Assembly: GCF_014775655.1 (NCBI RefSeq)
Contig: NZ_CP061274.1
Span: 1,302,001 to 1,366,000, forward strand
Direction of reading: 5' to 3'
DNA from: Clavibacter zhangzhiyongii
GTDB lineage: Bacteria; Actinomycetota; Actinomycetes; Actinomycetales; Microbacteriaceae
Length of the DNA: 64,000 nucleotides
Each line of letters begins with the position of its first letter. The stretch's first letter is position 1. The notes under the pieces are model-generated. The model saw nothing but the letters and a program-made list of their open reading frames with translations, was not told where the DNA came from and did no database searches. Position numbers and translations under genes: made by a program. Of this stretch, positions 2,845-6,939 are shown piece after piece.

Positions 2845-2907
2845 GGCGCGGCGGCACGCGCGATGCGCGCGGGGGCGGCGGCCTGGCGCGCGCCGGGACG
2901 GCGGGGC

Positions 2908-2913
2908 TACCGT
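2908..2913 (+). promoter_or_regulatory. -10 hexamer TACCGT, leaderless start of guaB1
   Basis: TACCGT ends 6 nt before the guaB1 ATG, so transcription should begin at or next to the start codon. Confidence 0.6.
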
Positions 2914-2919
2914 CGGGGC

Positions 2920-4359
2920 ATGAGGTTCACCGGAGAGGCTCCCGCCCACGACCTGACCTACTCGGACGTGTTCCTGAGCCCCGGGAGGTCCGACGTCGCC
3001 AGCCGGATGGACGTCGACCTGGCGCCGGGCGACGGCACGCCCTGCACCATCCCGGTAGTGGCGAGCAACATGGGCTCGGTCACCGGACCCCGGCTCGCGG
3101 CCGTGCTCGCGCGGCGGGGCGGGATCGGGATCCTCCCGCAGGACCTCCGCCCGCAGGAGCTCGACGCCGCGATCCACCGGGTCAAGGACCAGCCCGTCGC
3201 CTACGACTCGCCGCTCGAGCTGTCGCCGGACGCCACGGCAGGCGAGGCGCGCGAGCTGCTCCCGCCGATCGCCGGGCACGGCATCGTGCTGCGCGACGCG
3301 GACGGGGAGATGGTCGGCTGCCTCGAGGGCACCCAGCTCGCCGGCGTCCCCGACGGCACCCGGCTCGGGGACCTGCCGCACGGCGCGCTGGCCTCGCTCG
3401 ACGCCGACGACGTGCCCACGGGCCGCGCGGCCTTCGAGCTGATGCACGCGGCGGGCATCGACTTCGCGCCCGTCCTCGCGCACGGCCGGCTCGTCGGCAC
3501 CCTCAGCCGCCGCAGCGCCCTGCGCTCCACCGTCTACGCGCCCGCCGCCGACGCGCACGGCCGGCTGGCGGTCGGCGCGGCGGTCGGCGTCAACGGGGAT
3601 CCGGTCGGACGGGCCCGCGCGCTGCTCGCCGCGGGCGTCGACGTGCTCGTGCTCGACACGGCGCACGGGCACCAGGAGGCGATGCTCCGGGCCATCCGCG
3701 ACGTCCGGGCGCTCGACCCGCGCGTGCCGCTGGTGGCGGGCAACGTCGTGACCGCGGAGGGCGCGCGTGACCTCGTCGAGGCGGGCGCCGACATCGTCAA
3801 GGTCGGCGTGGGACCCGGCGCCATGTGCACCACGCGCATGATGACCGCCGTCGGCCGCCCGCAGTTCTCCGCCGTGCTCGACACGGCCGCCGCCGCGCGG
3901 GAGGCGGGCGCGCTCGTCTGGGCCGACGGGGGAGTGCGGTACCCGCGCGACGTGGCGCTCGCGCTGGCCGCGGGGGCGGCGAGCGTGATGATCGGCTCGT
4001 GGTTCGCGGGCACGGTCGAGTCGCCCGGCCGGCTGCTCGTCGACGACGACGGCGGCATGGCGAAGGAGAGCTGGGGCATGGCGTCCACGCGCGCCGTGCA
4101 GGAGCGCTTCGGGCGGCGCGAGGCGTTCGAGCTGGCCCGGCGCACGCTCTTCGCGGAGGGGATATCGACCAGCCGCATCCGCATCGACCCGCTGCGCCCC
4201 GGCCTCGAGGACCTGCTCGACACCATCACGTCCGGCGTCCGCAGCGCGTTCACCTACGCGGGGGCGCGCACGCGGGCCGAGTTCGCGGACCGGGCGGCGG
4301 TCGGGATCCAGTCCGCCGCGGGCTACGAGGAGGGCAAGCCCCTGCCGGTCGGCTGGTGA
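2920..4359 (+). CDS. guaB1: GuaB1 family IMP dehydrogenase-related protein (probable GMP reductase)
   Basis: This 479-residue protein has the IMPDH/GMPR (beta/alpha)8 barrel. The catalytic loop [17 protein letters not shown] places the cysteine at residue 303. A CBS-type insert spans roughly residues 95-205, and the N-terminus reads [15 protein letters not shown]. The GuaB1 paralogue of mycobacteria has been characterised as a CBS-regulated GMP reductase converting GMP to IMP, so I infer purine salvage here rather than de novo GMP synthesis. The ATG at 2920 was chosen because it keeps the normal N-terminus and sits 6 nt below a TACCGT -10. GuaB1 is divergent from kgd, and the leader ORF of the CNNM operon follows 22 bp downstream. 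Confidence 0.92.
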
Positions 4360-4366
4360 GCCCCGG

Positions 4367-4372
4367 TATGCT
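4367..4372 (+). promoter_or_regulatory. -10 hexamer TATGCT before the CNNM operon
   Basis: TATGCT lies just after the guaB1 stop, 9 nt before the ATG of a short proline-rich ORF and about 100 nt before the first transporter gene. No clear -35 is visible. Confidence 0.5.
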
Positions 4373-4381
4373 CGACGGACG

Positions 4382-4480
4382 ATGGACGACCCCCCTCCTG
4401 CTCATAGACCCCCGCCCCGCGCCGCCCTCGACCTGAAGCCGGCCGTGCGCCCGGCGCCCGGGAGCCGCTCCGGTGAGTGA
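4382..4480 (+). CDS. Proline-rich leader peptide ORF (32 aa) upstream of the CNNM/CorC operon
   Basis: The ORF starts at ATG, 9 nt below a TATGCT -10, and encodes 32 residues beginning [13 protein letters not shown]. Nine of the 32 are proline, including two PPP runs directly after an acidic Asp-Asp pair. Its TGA (4478-4480) lies inside the first codons of the transporter gene, whose GTG is at 4473, so the two overlap by 8 nt in different frames. No homologue is known to me. Proline-rich, acidic-start leader peptides are established as Mg2+- and proline-responsive switches upstream of enterobacterial Mg2+ transporter genes (mgtL of mgtA). Here I infer a comparable role only from composition and position. 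It could also be a fortuitous ORF. Confidence 0.45.
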
Positions 4481-5903
4481 ATGGCTCCTCCTCGCCGTCG
4501 GCCTCCTCCTGACCCTCGGCACCGGCCTCTTCGTGGCCAGCGAGTTCGCGCTCGTCAACCTCGACCGCTCCGACCTCGAGAAGCGCCAGGAGCGCGGCGA
4601 GAAGCGGCTCGGCCCCTCCATCCGCGCCCTGCGCATCACCTCGACCCACCTCTCGAGCGCCCAGCTCGGGATCACGCTGACGACCCTGCTCACCGGATAC
4701 ACGATGGAGCCGGCGCTCAGCCGCCTCCTCGCCGGGCCCCTCACCTCCGCCGGACTCGCGGAGTCGCTCGTCTCCCCGGTCGCGACCGTGGTGGCGCTCG
4801 TCGTCGCGACGCTCCTGTCGATGATCATCGGCGAGCTCGTGCCGAAGAACTTCGCGCTGGCCCTGCCGCGCGAGACGGCGAAGCTCGTGATCCCGTTCCA
4901 GTCGCTGTTCACGACCGTGTTCAAGCCCGCTGTGCTGCTGCTCAACAACAGCGCGAACGGCATCCTCCGCCTCGTCGGCATCGAGCCGAAGGAGGAGCTG
5001 TCGGGTGCCCGCAGCGCCGAGGAGCTGTCCTCGCTCGTGCGGCGGTCCGCCCTCGCGGGCCTCCTCGAGGACGACACGGCGATGCTCCTCAGCCGCACGC
5101 TGCGCTTCGCCGACCTCACGGCGTCCGACGTCATGACCCCGAGGCTCCGCGTGAAGTCCGTGGAGCGCACCGACAGCGCGCAGACCGTGATCGAGCTCGC
5201 CATGACCACGGGCTACTCCCGCTTCCCGGTCACGGACGACGGCGTCGACGACGTCATCGGCCTGGTGCACGTGAAGCAGGCCGTCGCCGTGCCGCGCGAG
5301 AAGCGCGCGCAGGTGCCGGTCACCGCCCTGCAGTCGGAGGCGATCCGCGTCCCCGAGACGATGAAGCTCGACGACCTGCTCGGCGAGCTGCGCGGCCGCG
5401 GCTTCCAGATGGCCGTCGTGGTCGACGAGTACGGCGGCACCGCCGGCGTCGCGACCCTCGAGGACCTGGTCGAGGAGCTGGTCGGCGAGCTCGCCGACGA
5501 GCACGACCGCACGCGCGCGGGCGTCGTCCGCTCGCGCGACTCCCTCACCTTCCCCGGGATGCTGCGGCCCGACGAGCTCCTCGAGCGCACGGGTCTCCGC
5601 ATCCCCGAGGAGGGCCCCTACGAGACGGCAGCCGGCTTCGTCATGAGCGAGCTCGGCCGCCTGCCCGTCGTGGGCGACGAGCTGGAGCTCGAGACGGGGA
5701 CGCTGCGGGTCGAGCGGCTGGACGGCCGGCGCATCGACCGGATCCGCTTCACCCCCGTCCCCGAGCCCGTCGCCACCGCGGTGGGCACCACGCGCGCCGA
5801 GCGCCAGGCCGAGCGCCAGGCCGACCGCGAGGCCGGGCGCCAGGCCGGACGCCAGGCGGACGCGGAACGCGCCGCGAGCAGGAAGGAGCCGTCCCATGGG
5901 TGA
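4473..5903 (+). CDS. CNNM/CorC (HCC) family cation transporter with DUF21, CBS pair and CorC-HlyC domain
   Basis: This 476-residue membrane protein belongs to the CNNM/CorB-CorC family, implicated in Mg2+/Co2+ efflux or homeostasis. The N-terminal DUF21 domain (residues 1 to about 190) has hydrophobic helices and the ASEFALVNLDRSDLE and IIGELVPKNFAL motifs. A CBS pair follows (about 215-335, SDVMTPRLRV and MAVVVDEYGGTAGVATLEDL). A CorC_HlyC domain spans about 350-425. The C-terminus is a low-complexity Arg-Gln-Ala tail. The start is GTG within the 3' end of a leader ORF. The family sometimes appears under the older name 'hemolysin', but transport or regulation fits better. The next gene overlaps by 8 nt and encodes a paralogue, so the pair probably forms one complex. 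Confidence 0.88.
   Translation: MSEWLLLAVGLLLTLGTGLFVASEFALVNLDRSDLEKRQERGEKRLGPSIRALRITSTHLSSAQLGITLTTLLTGYTMEPALSRLLAGPLTSAGLAESLVSPVATVVALVVATLLSMIIGELVPKNFALALPRETAKLVIPFQSLFTTVFKPAVLLLNNSANGILRLVGIEPKEELSGARSAEELSSLVRRSALAGLLEDDTAMLLSRTLRFADLTASDVMTPRLRVKSVERTDSAQTVIELAMTTGYSRFPVTDDGVDDVIGLVHVKQAVAVPREKRAQVPVTALQSEAIRVPETMKLDDLLGELRGRGFQMAVVVDEYGGTAGVATLEDLVEELVGELADEHDRTRAGVVRSRDSLTFPGMLRPDELLERTGLRIPEEGPYETAAGFVMSELGRLPVVGDELELETGTLRVERLDGRRIDRIRFTPVPEPVATAVGTTRAERQAERQADREAGRQAGRQADAERAASRKEPSHG
5799..5858 (+). repeat. Five tandem 12-bp units encoding a (E/D/G)RQA tail
   Basis: Five consecutive 12-bp units of the form GAG-CGC-CAG-GCC, with drift in the first codon, encode ERQA-ERQA-DREA-GRQA-GRQA at the C-terminus of the first CNNM protein. 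The in-frame period suggests expansion by slippage or unequal exchange. Confidence 0.85.
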
Positions 5904-6939
5904 GTACGCCGGGGGGATCATCGCGCTCGTCGTGCTGCTCGCCGTCAACGCCTTCTTCGTCGGCGCCGAGTTCGCGGTCATCTCCGCGAAGCGGTCGCAG
6001 ATCGAGCCGCGCGCCGAGGAGGGCAGCCGCGCCGCGCGCGTCACGCTCTACGCCATGGAGCACGCCACGCTCATGCTCGCGACCACGCAGCTCGGCATCA
6101 CCGTGTGCTCGCTGCTGATCCTCAACGTGTCCGAGCCGGCGATCCACCACCTGCTGGAGATCCCGCTCGCCGGGACCGGGCTGCCGGAGGAGGCGATCTC
6201 CACCATCGCCTTCGTCATCGCGCTGCTCATCGTCTCGTTCCTGCACGTGGTGCTCGGCGAGATGGTGCCGAAGAACATCTCGTTCTCGGTGCCGGACCGG
6301 GCGGCGCTGCTGCTCGCGCCGCCGCTCGTGGGCATCGCCCGCCTGGTCAAGCCGCTCATCGTGGCGCTCAACGCCGTCTCGAACGCCGTGCTGCGCGCGT
6401 TCAAGGTGGAGCCGAAGGACGAGGCCGCGAGCGCGTTCACGCTCGACGAGGTGCAGGGCATCGTCGACCAGTCCACCCGCGAGGGGGTGCTGGAGGACCG
6501 GACGGGCGCGCTCACCGCGGCGTTCGAGTTCACGGGCAAGAAGGTGCAGGACATCGCGATCCCCCTGGGCGCGCTGGTCAGCCTCCCCGAGACCGCGTCG
6601 CCGTCGGAGGTCGAGCGCGCCGTCGCCCGCCACGGCTTCTCGCGCTACGTGATCGTCGACGAGCAGGGCGAGCCGTCGGGCTACCTCCACCTCAAGGACG
6701 TCATCGACCTCGACGAGGCCGACGAGTTCGTGCGCCCCGTGCCGGCCAAGCGGATCCGGCAGCTCGTCTCGGTGTTCGAGGGCACCGAGCTCGAGGACGC
6801 GCTCGCCATGATGCGCCGCTCGGGCGCCCACCTCGCCCGCGCCTTCCGCGAGGACGGGGAGACGACGGGCGTGCTCTTCCTCGAGGACATCATCGAGGAG
6901 CTCGTCGGCGAGGTGCAGGACGCCACCCGGCGGATCTGA
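5896..6939 (+). CDS. CNNM/CorC family cation transporter, second paralogue without C-terminal CorC domain
   Basis: This 347-residue paralogue of the preceding protein has an N-terminal DUF21 membrane domain (EFAVISAKRSQIEP, VVLGEMVPKNISFS) and a CBS pair (about 215-340, FSRYVIVDEQGEPSGYLHL and GVLFLEDIIEELVGEV). It stops right after the CBS pair and lacks the CorC_HlyC domain. The ATG overlaps the upstream gene by 8 nt, so translation is probably coupled. Two dissimilar-length paralogues in tandem are common in this family and suggest a heteromer. The gene ends shortly before a strong bidirectional hairpin. Confidence 0.88.
   Translation: MGEYAGGIIALVVLLAVNAFFVGAEFAVISAKRSQIEPRAEEGSRAARVTLYAMEHATLMLATTQLGITVCSLLILNVSEPAIHHLLEIPLAGTGLPEEAISTIAFVIALLIVSFLHVVLGEMVPKNISFSVPDRAALLLAPPLVGIARLVKPLIVALNAVSNAVLRAFKVEPKDEAASAFTLDEVQGIVDQSTREGVLEDRTGALTAAFEFTGKKVQDIAIPLGALVSLPETASPSEVERAVARHGFSRYVIVDEQGEPSGYLHLKDVIDLDEADEFVRPVPAKRIRQLVSVFEGTELEDALAMMRRSGAHLARAFREDGETTGVLFLEDIIEELVGEVQDATRRI

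Follow-up and report, generated by a model that had tools for sequence, protein, structure and literature searches.

A near-leaderless acidic and proline-rich upstream ORF overlapping actinobacterial CNNM/CorC genes: a candidate ribosome-stability gauge for a cation exporter

The CNNM/CorC genes of Clavibacter zhangzhiyongii are preceded by a near-leaderless upstream open reading frame (uORF) whose second to fifth codons are constrained as peptide, whose early proline codons are biased towards CCU/CCC and whose stop overlaps the start of the first transporter gene. We propose that it acts as a cation sensor working through ribosome stability and coupled to an exporter, ON at high Mg2+ and OFF at low Mg2+, a reading that we rate slightly above even. 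In its wider form the proposal is of a switch used across an actinobacterial order: a near-leaderless acidic-Pro minigene (8-10 codons in one family, with convergent acidic residues and CCU/CCC codons) would gauge ribosome stability (Mg2+, perhaps polyamines) and license a cation exporter only when completed, with a sign opposite to that of MgtL; to this generalisation we give an even chance. The features of the locus in the window, i.e., the whole 64,000-nt stretch analysed, are as follows.

2863..4359, + strand: GuaB1-type GMP reductase (NCBIfam NF052358, 758.2 bits, cut-off 675), the upstream neighbour, outside the proposed switch
4367..4372, + strand: -10-like box TATGCT, predicted promoter of the uORF and the CNNM genes, read in the sequence
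4382..4480, + strand: near-leaderless uORF, 32 codons plus TGA, 32 aa, read in the sequence and present in 78/80 relatives
4385..4399, + strand: proposed sensor codons 2-6, GAC GAC CCC CCT CCT (Asp-Asp-Pro-Pro-Pro), from codon-position variability and CCY-biased Pro codons
4403..4411, + strand: second, dispensable motif CAT AGA CCC (His-Arg-Pro), missing from the shortest uORFs (e.g., L086, L095, L097)
4460..4464, + strand: Shine-Dalgarno (SD)-like GGGAG for CNNM1, within the uORF, read in the sequence
4473..4480, + strand: 8-nt overlap of the uORF end (TGA 4478-4480) with the CNNM1 start (GTG 4473), read in the sequence
4473..5903, + strand: CNNM1, 476 aa, with CNNM, CBS pair and CorC_HlyC transporter domains (Pfam PF01595, PF00571 and PF03471, over the cut-off)
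5896..6939, + strand: CNNM2, 347 aa, with CNNM and CBS domains and an 8-nt overlap with CNNM1 (5896-5903)

The box and the ORF are as the earlier note described them: TATGCT at 4367-4372 is followed after 9 nt by the ATG at 4382, which opens 32 codons, nine of them for Pro, and the stop lies 8 nt into the first transporter gene (overlap 4473-4480, GTG at 4473). Given the usual spacing between a -10 box and its transcript start, transcription is predicted to begin about 3 nt ahead of the uORF ATG. The same near-leaderless arrangement recurs in relatives: 75 of the 77 parsed loci have a TANNNT box (TATACT in 34, TATAGT in 16) ending 9-10 nt ahead of the first uORF codon. L039 is left out of the Pro-codon and SD counts below. 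The pattern ATGGAYGANCCNCC occurs twice in the C. zhangzhiyongii genome, at the uORF and inside a longer coding frame that we presume from its reading to be ATP synthase beta. The uORF peptide itself has no family match in Pfam or NCBIfam.

Conservation was read from protein-anchored loci, since a DNA search with a 131-nt block over 299 family genomes was too noisy for counts. The family set comprises the best 80 of at least 432 relatives, nearly all Microbacteriaceae (family f1), and all counts given here are of related genomes, not of independent events. A uORF lies ahead of the CNNM/CorC gene in 78 of these 80 best-matching relatives (79 were parsed for an acidic-Pro start, with 77 positive, and L108 was read separately); no uORF was found in two Herbiconiux loci (L116, L118). 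The first five residues are MDDPP in 67 of the 77 parsed uORFs, or in 68/80 with L108, so that the early Asp-Pro composition looked for at the suggestion of the earlier note is present. The rarer starts are MDEPP and MEPPS (two each) and MDHPP, VDDPP, MDDPH, MGDPL and MDDPS (once each), and a single MDDPL belongs to the frameshifted L039. A conserved ORF length, suggested in the same place, was not found, the uORFs ranging from 11 to 63 aa with 25 aa in 30/77. The features kept among relatives are the first five codons, the reading frame and the place of the stop; neither the length nor the Pro content further on is conserved.

The stop position was measured against the acidic codon at the CNNM start: it lies at -1 in 62 of 77 loci, at -5 in six and at -8 in five, with one locus each at -7, -11, +4 and -45. 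With the CNNM starts of relatives inferred from sequence and not annotated, the stop falls on or one base from the inferred start in 77/78 loci (one base before it in L077), which bears out the expected overlap with the transporter gene; the lone exception is the frameshifted -45 locus. The third base ahead of the CNNM acidic codon is T in 66/77 loci, compared with 6.0% T at the third positions of the gene; since any stop at -1 necessarily includes this T, the count over all parsed loci is the fairer test. Many Microbacteriaceae uORFs (L046, L047, L085 and others) also carry a second motif, H[RK]P(S/P/M)PV, encoded CAT-ARA-CCC, codons that we take to be unusual for high-GC genomes.

Within the genus, the locus was found in 18/18 genomes, that of C. 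zhangzhiyongii included. Frameshifts in close relatives, which the earlier note had counted against the ORF, do occur: the frame is broken in L024 (on a contig of the same length as that of L039), where one base of a C run is missing, and displaced in L023, where a 7-nt duplication puts an out-of-frame ATG first, and it is intact in the other 16. With L024 left out and L023 read from its second ATG (17 genomes), codons 2-6 show variation at a single third position. In codons 7-13 the first, second and third positions vary at 1, 3 and 3 of 7 sites, respectively, and in codons 14-30 at 8, 9 and 5 of 17 sites. The variation of codons 14-30 at positions 1 and 2 indicates that the C-terminus of the uORF is without peptide constraint in the genus.

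For the wider comparison, 74 loci were chosen by a match to [MV]D[DEH]P (leaving out L108, L116, L118 and three MEPPS/MGDPL loci). In codons 2-5, positions 1 and 2 carry 0-0.21 bits of variability versus 0.67-1.56 at position 3; from codon 6 on, every codon position varies. Choosing loci by this pattern holds positions 1 and 2 of codons 2-4 partly constant, but constrains neither codon 5 nor the drift at third positions. This drift at third positions under fixed amino acids argues for selection on Asp-Asp-Pro-Pro and not on DNA alone, and the synonymous-biased substitution that the earlier note proposed to look for is thus found in codons 2-5. A nucleotide-level bias lies on top of it, the fourth codon being CCT (55) or CCC (19) in all 74 loci.

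The bias extends to the other early prolines. Counted over codons 1-6 of 76 f1 uORFs, Pro is encoded by CCT 102, CCC 50, CCG 9 and CCA 2 times, a CCU/CCC share of 152/163 versus 648/1562 in the CNNM genes (CCG 863, CCC 599, CCA 51, CCT 49); later in the uORFs the counts are CCC 166, CCG 59, CCT 23 and CCA 14. For Pro after D/E in the uORFs of family f10 we count CCT 11 and CCC 5, against CCC 313, CCG 266, CCT 32 and CCA 27 in the f10 CNNM genes. The corresponding f14 codons are CCC 9, CCT 3 and CCG 1, a weak CCY bias in a family where CCC is already common.

Across the order, 119 genomes were searched and 117 matched; the loci of 90 of these were read and 89 were scored (L173, which has no upstream sequence, was dropped). 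By the rule applied, a uORF had to open with an ATG that follows a TANNNT box at a distance of 6-10 nt, to run for 8 codons or more and to stop no further than 14 nt from where CNNM starts. A leaderless overlapping uORF is present in 59/89 loci versus 0.6 expected from dinucleotide shuffles, and 36/89 (versus 0.1 in shuffles) have two D/E or more among residues 2-12; this control addresses sequence composition only. Outside the Microbacteriaceae, the leaderless uORF occurs in 51/81 loci and the acidic start in 28/81. Acidic starts elsewhere include MDDPPSHMPWPL and MDSPSR (f6), MDDHPSS (f2), MDDSRYTG (f9), MMQPETDPPDEPH and MTTVPDQLPDDPDDEPH (f5), MSSDARVDSDPPST (f14) and SDSP...PDDDPHP (f7). 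Two acidic residues in residues 2-12 are lacking in 23 of the 59 leaderless uORFs (e.g., MPSRP, MSRPRPS, MSSSPGP); no uORF found in f12, f15 or f16 passes the acidic test, and some in f14, f7 and others fail it too.

By the same mechanical rule, none of the 17 loci of f8, f11, f17, f18 and f19 has a uORF. With the frame broken in 2/18 genus members and the uORF missing in 2/80 relatives and in these 17 loci, the uORF is dispensable. A TANNNT box stands 9 nt before the CNNM ATG in 7/8 f17 loci (L181, L187, L204, L210, L216, L218, L219), so that CNNM itself looks leaderless there. The f17 and Herbiconiux loci may be natural versions without the switch, as if it had been left out. In the Herbiconiux loci L116 and L118, a TACACT lies shortly before a GTG, and CNNM itself may be leaderless.

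Two families were read in depth. In f10 (41 genomes searched, 38 matched, 30 loci read), all 30 loci have a leaderless uORF, of 8-10 codons in 27 and of 13, 21 and 21 codons in the others, and the whole leader measures about 25-35 nt. Half of these uORFs (15/30), some of 8-9 codons among them, start with MDPDS. Two acidic residues occur in residues 2-10 in 23 of 30 rows and three in one, the L272 row being in the wrong frame (its actual 8-codon uORF reads MHGERRTA). The stop lies on the CNNM start in 29/30 and 22 nt upstream in L286. In f14 (12 genomes searched, 11 matched, 10 loci with upstream sequence), a D-x-D-P-(P/H)-S motif (DSDPPS-like) is found at codons 8-13 in 5/10 loci, and the remaining loci comprise one MDSSEGP, one AETGPPSSDPPS and three non-acidic MSS(S/P)PGP.

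On the transporter side, the CNNM pair is likely an Mg2+ exporter, an activity carried over from homologues. The genome of C. zhangzhiyongii gives no match to MgtE, and a simple scan of its three CorA loci found none with a similar overlapping acidic uORF. It encodes a protein above the cut-off of the EttA/ChvD model TIGR03719 (903.6 bits, cut-off 806.75), a model that we equate with EttA. One of the best CNNM matches is to PaeA of NCBIfam, a model for polyamine export, below its cut-off (155.6 of 500 bits), and polyamines are for this reason considered a possible alternative signal and substrate. An SD-like site (loose pattern) precedes CNNM1 in 65/76 loci, so that CNNM1 need not depend on coupling; the second 8-nt overlap, between CNNM1 and CNNM2, means that the operon may be coupled throughout.

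The proposed mechanism draws on published work. Early acidic residues of MgtL (EPDP, Glu2 and Asp4) cause drop-off at low Mg2+ in E. coli, which EttA counters (PMC11282234), and high Mg2+ suppresses intrinsic ribosome destabilisation (PMC9718836). The mgtL Pro codons, CC[C/U], need m1G37, made by the Mg2+-dependent TrmD (PMC6335274), and leaderless mRNAs initiate mostly by direct 70S binding (PMC9031893). Salmonella CorC and MgpA are described as protecting from excess Mg2+, most probably by efflux, and as induced by high Mg2+ (PMC12421838), and MpfA and MpfB of S. aureus are reported Mg2+ exporters (PMC6711546).

On a transcript starting at the predicted position, about 3 nt before the uORF, the ribosome would initiate at the ATG and at once polymerise Asp-Asp-Pro-Pro on CCU/CCC codons, while its exit tunnel is still nearly empty of nascent chain. 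At high free Mg2+, or with other cations that stabilise the 70S ribosome, it would get through to the TGA and re-initiate at CNNM1, and CNNM2 would be translated next through the like overlap. At low Mg2+, drop-off, stalling or frameshifting in the first codons would leave few ribosomes at the CNNM1 start and the exporter off; RNA left untranslated may in addition be removed through Rho. A leaderless start by direct 70S binding would add to the dependence on 70S stability. Taken together, the drop-off known from MgtL, the role of CorC/MgpA and the stop/start overlap lead us to suggest that completion of the uORF at high Mg2+ licenses the exporter; the exporter-type target and the direct coupling are why we expect a sign opposite to that of mgtL.

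The earlier note had taken the ORF for a possible mgtL-like switch that could act by translational coupling rather than transcription attenuation. The likeness holds for the peptide: as with MgtL of Salmonella/E. coli mgtA, a leader ORF of an Mg2+ transport-type gene carries early acidic and Pro residues (PMC11282234), its Pro codons are CC[C/U] as in mgtL (PMC6335274), and the f10 uORFs start MDPD, comparable to EPDP. It does not extend to the RNA attenuator. There is no conserved RNA structure over 29 equal-length loci (RNAalifold -1.2 kcal/mol), the leader in the window folds no better than shuffles (z = +1.02), and the 8-10 codon f10 uORFs, like other uORFs of 8-15 codons, leave hardly any room for a hairpin. 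The RNA structure for attenuation downstream of the ORF that belongs to MgtL-type leaders is thus not found; the CNNM uORF should for this reason not be filed as MgtL, and the note's preference for coupling over transcription attenuation is supported as far as a conserved RNA attenuator is concerned. An Rfam scan of 4100-4800 with E up to 10 returned one sub-threshold match only, to mir-46 (4315-4410, minus strand, 22.5 bits, gathering threshold 44.7), an animal microRNA family, which we take as chance.

Published work has MgtL controlling an importer gene by way of RNA conformation and Rho, with low Mg2+ as the ON condition (PMC11282234). Unlike it, the CNNM uORF is near-leaderless, overlaps the start of its target, precedes an exporter-type gene and is predicted to be OFF at low Mg2+. 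MgtL is SD-led and is not known to overlap mgtA. The sensor part may be of the MgtL type by analogy, with a different start, output stage and target. MgtQ, an 8-aa ORF between mgtC and mgtB, is comparable in its tiny size and in its early Asp/Glu, at which translation aborts with an effect on how an Mg2+ transporter is translated, but it is SD-led and lies in a 219-nt intergenic region where alternative stem-loops free the mgtB RBS, and abortion raises mgtB (PMC8092293). Two enterobacterial cases are cited in PMC12421838: YoaL, an overlapping leader ORF of mgpA/yoaE whose start-to-stop change lowers the CorC-domain protein MgpA, and CorC/YbeX, where a destabilising N-terminus, within the gene itself, is proposed to limit CorC until Mg2+ is high, the same sign as predicted here. 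Among actinobacteria, M. tuberculosis Rv1805A is a uORF in an Mg2+-regulated leader (the Mbox upstream of pe20), but there the riboswitch senses, the uORF is SD-led and the gene behind it is not a CNNM gene (PMC12810186). Small leaderless regulatory ORFs (PMC9031893) and the actinobacterial ilvB-II uORF of Corynebacterium, rich in branched-chain amino acids and with attenuation proposed (PMC10272879), are uORFs, partly leaderless, that control a downstream gene, though not a cation gene. No description of this uORF was found in the open-access literature searched, nor did 'MDDPP' occur in the papers scanned for it, which is a weak test and not proof of absence.

The codon bias leaves room for a sensor of proline decoding, in which the signal would be prolyl-tRNA charge or m1G37 (TrmD, Mg2+-dependent) at CCU/CCC instead of destabilisation by an acidic chain, possibly acting jointly with the latter. 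The excess of CCT/CCC in early f1 Pro codons and in f10 Pro after D/E relative to CNNM speaks for this reading, as do the m1G37-dependent CC[C/U] codons of mgtL (PMC6335274); it leaves the near-invariant Asp-Asp unexplained, however, several uORFs have no early Pro (MDSDS, MDDSR), and the f14 bias is small, and we regard it as possible but doubtful. Unlikely, in our judgement, is a device for coupling only, in which the leaderless minigene delivers ribosomes to the CNNM start constitutively and the acidic-Pro start is no sensor, fixing the throughput at most. Overlap and frame are indeed the most general feature, kept with a non-acidic N-terminus in 23/59 uORFs, and the C-terminal residues are unconstrained in the genus, but MDDPP persists in 68/80 with synonymous drift, acidic-Pro residues are kept at other positions elsewhere (f14, 5/10 at codons 8-13; f10, MDPDS in 15/30), and slow or risky start residues would be odd in a plain delivery device.

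Ribosome stability could also be read with the opposite sign, so that ribosomes dropping off or stalling at DDPP would leave the CNNM start free and low Mg2+ would be ON, as in MgtL/MgtQ. The acidic leader ORFs of mgtA and mgtB do act in this way (PMC11282234, PMC8092293), but they work by way of alternative RNA structures, of which none is conserved here (-1.2 kcal/mol, z = +1.02), the stop/start overlap favours positive coupling, and CorC/MpfA-type proteins have been linked to Mg2+ export in the organisms described, which makes this version rather improbable to us. Least credible is a DNA or RNA element, with the conserved block serving as initially transcribed region, as enhancer of leaderless initiation or as an anti-SD (CCUCC) masking the CNNM SD: its location at the predicted transcript start and the CCT or CCC of codon 4 in all 74 loci would suit such an element, but it is third positions that change, the two MEPPS loci are shorter by one codon and stay in frame, and the f14 acidic-Pro motif lies about seven codons in from the start. 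Pairing of CCUCC with the SD shows no association either, a strong SD being present in 21/61 loci with CCTCC versus 5/15 without.

If the ribosome-stability gauge with high Mg2+ as its ON condition is correct, risky early translation would have been put to use as an Mg2+ gauge for a second time, apparently independently, wired in reverse and stripped to 8-10 codons, and ribosome stability would be shown to be able to serve as a general cation read-out. EttA, EF-P or TrmD would gain a defined target in actinobacteria, and the uORF, of which well over a hundred natural variants exist, would make a compact reporter with which to learn which N-termini destabilise ribosomes.

At the level of the class, 88 genomes were searched and 46 matched, adding 25 new loci (L241-L265). 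As a raw count, 19/25 of them have an ORF that opens with ATG, comprises 8 or more codons and ends no more than 14 nt from where CNNM starts, few of these ORFs having a leaderless-type box; examples are MGEPPSTRH (f33) and MSTPPDDPPSRR (f40). In f32 (L243, L244, L247, L248, L251, L253), a different conserved uORF of 25 aa (e.g., MKDSDDAGCSSGRPTRAEAPAGVDR) ends on the CNNM start and is preceded by GGAAGGGATC.
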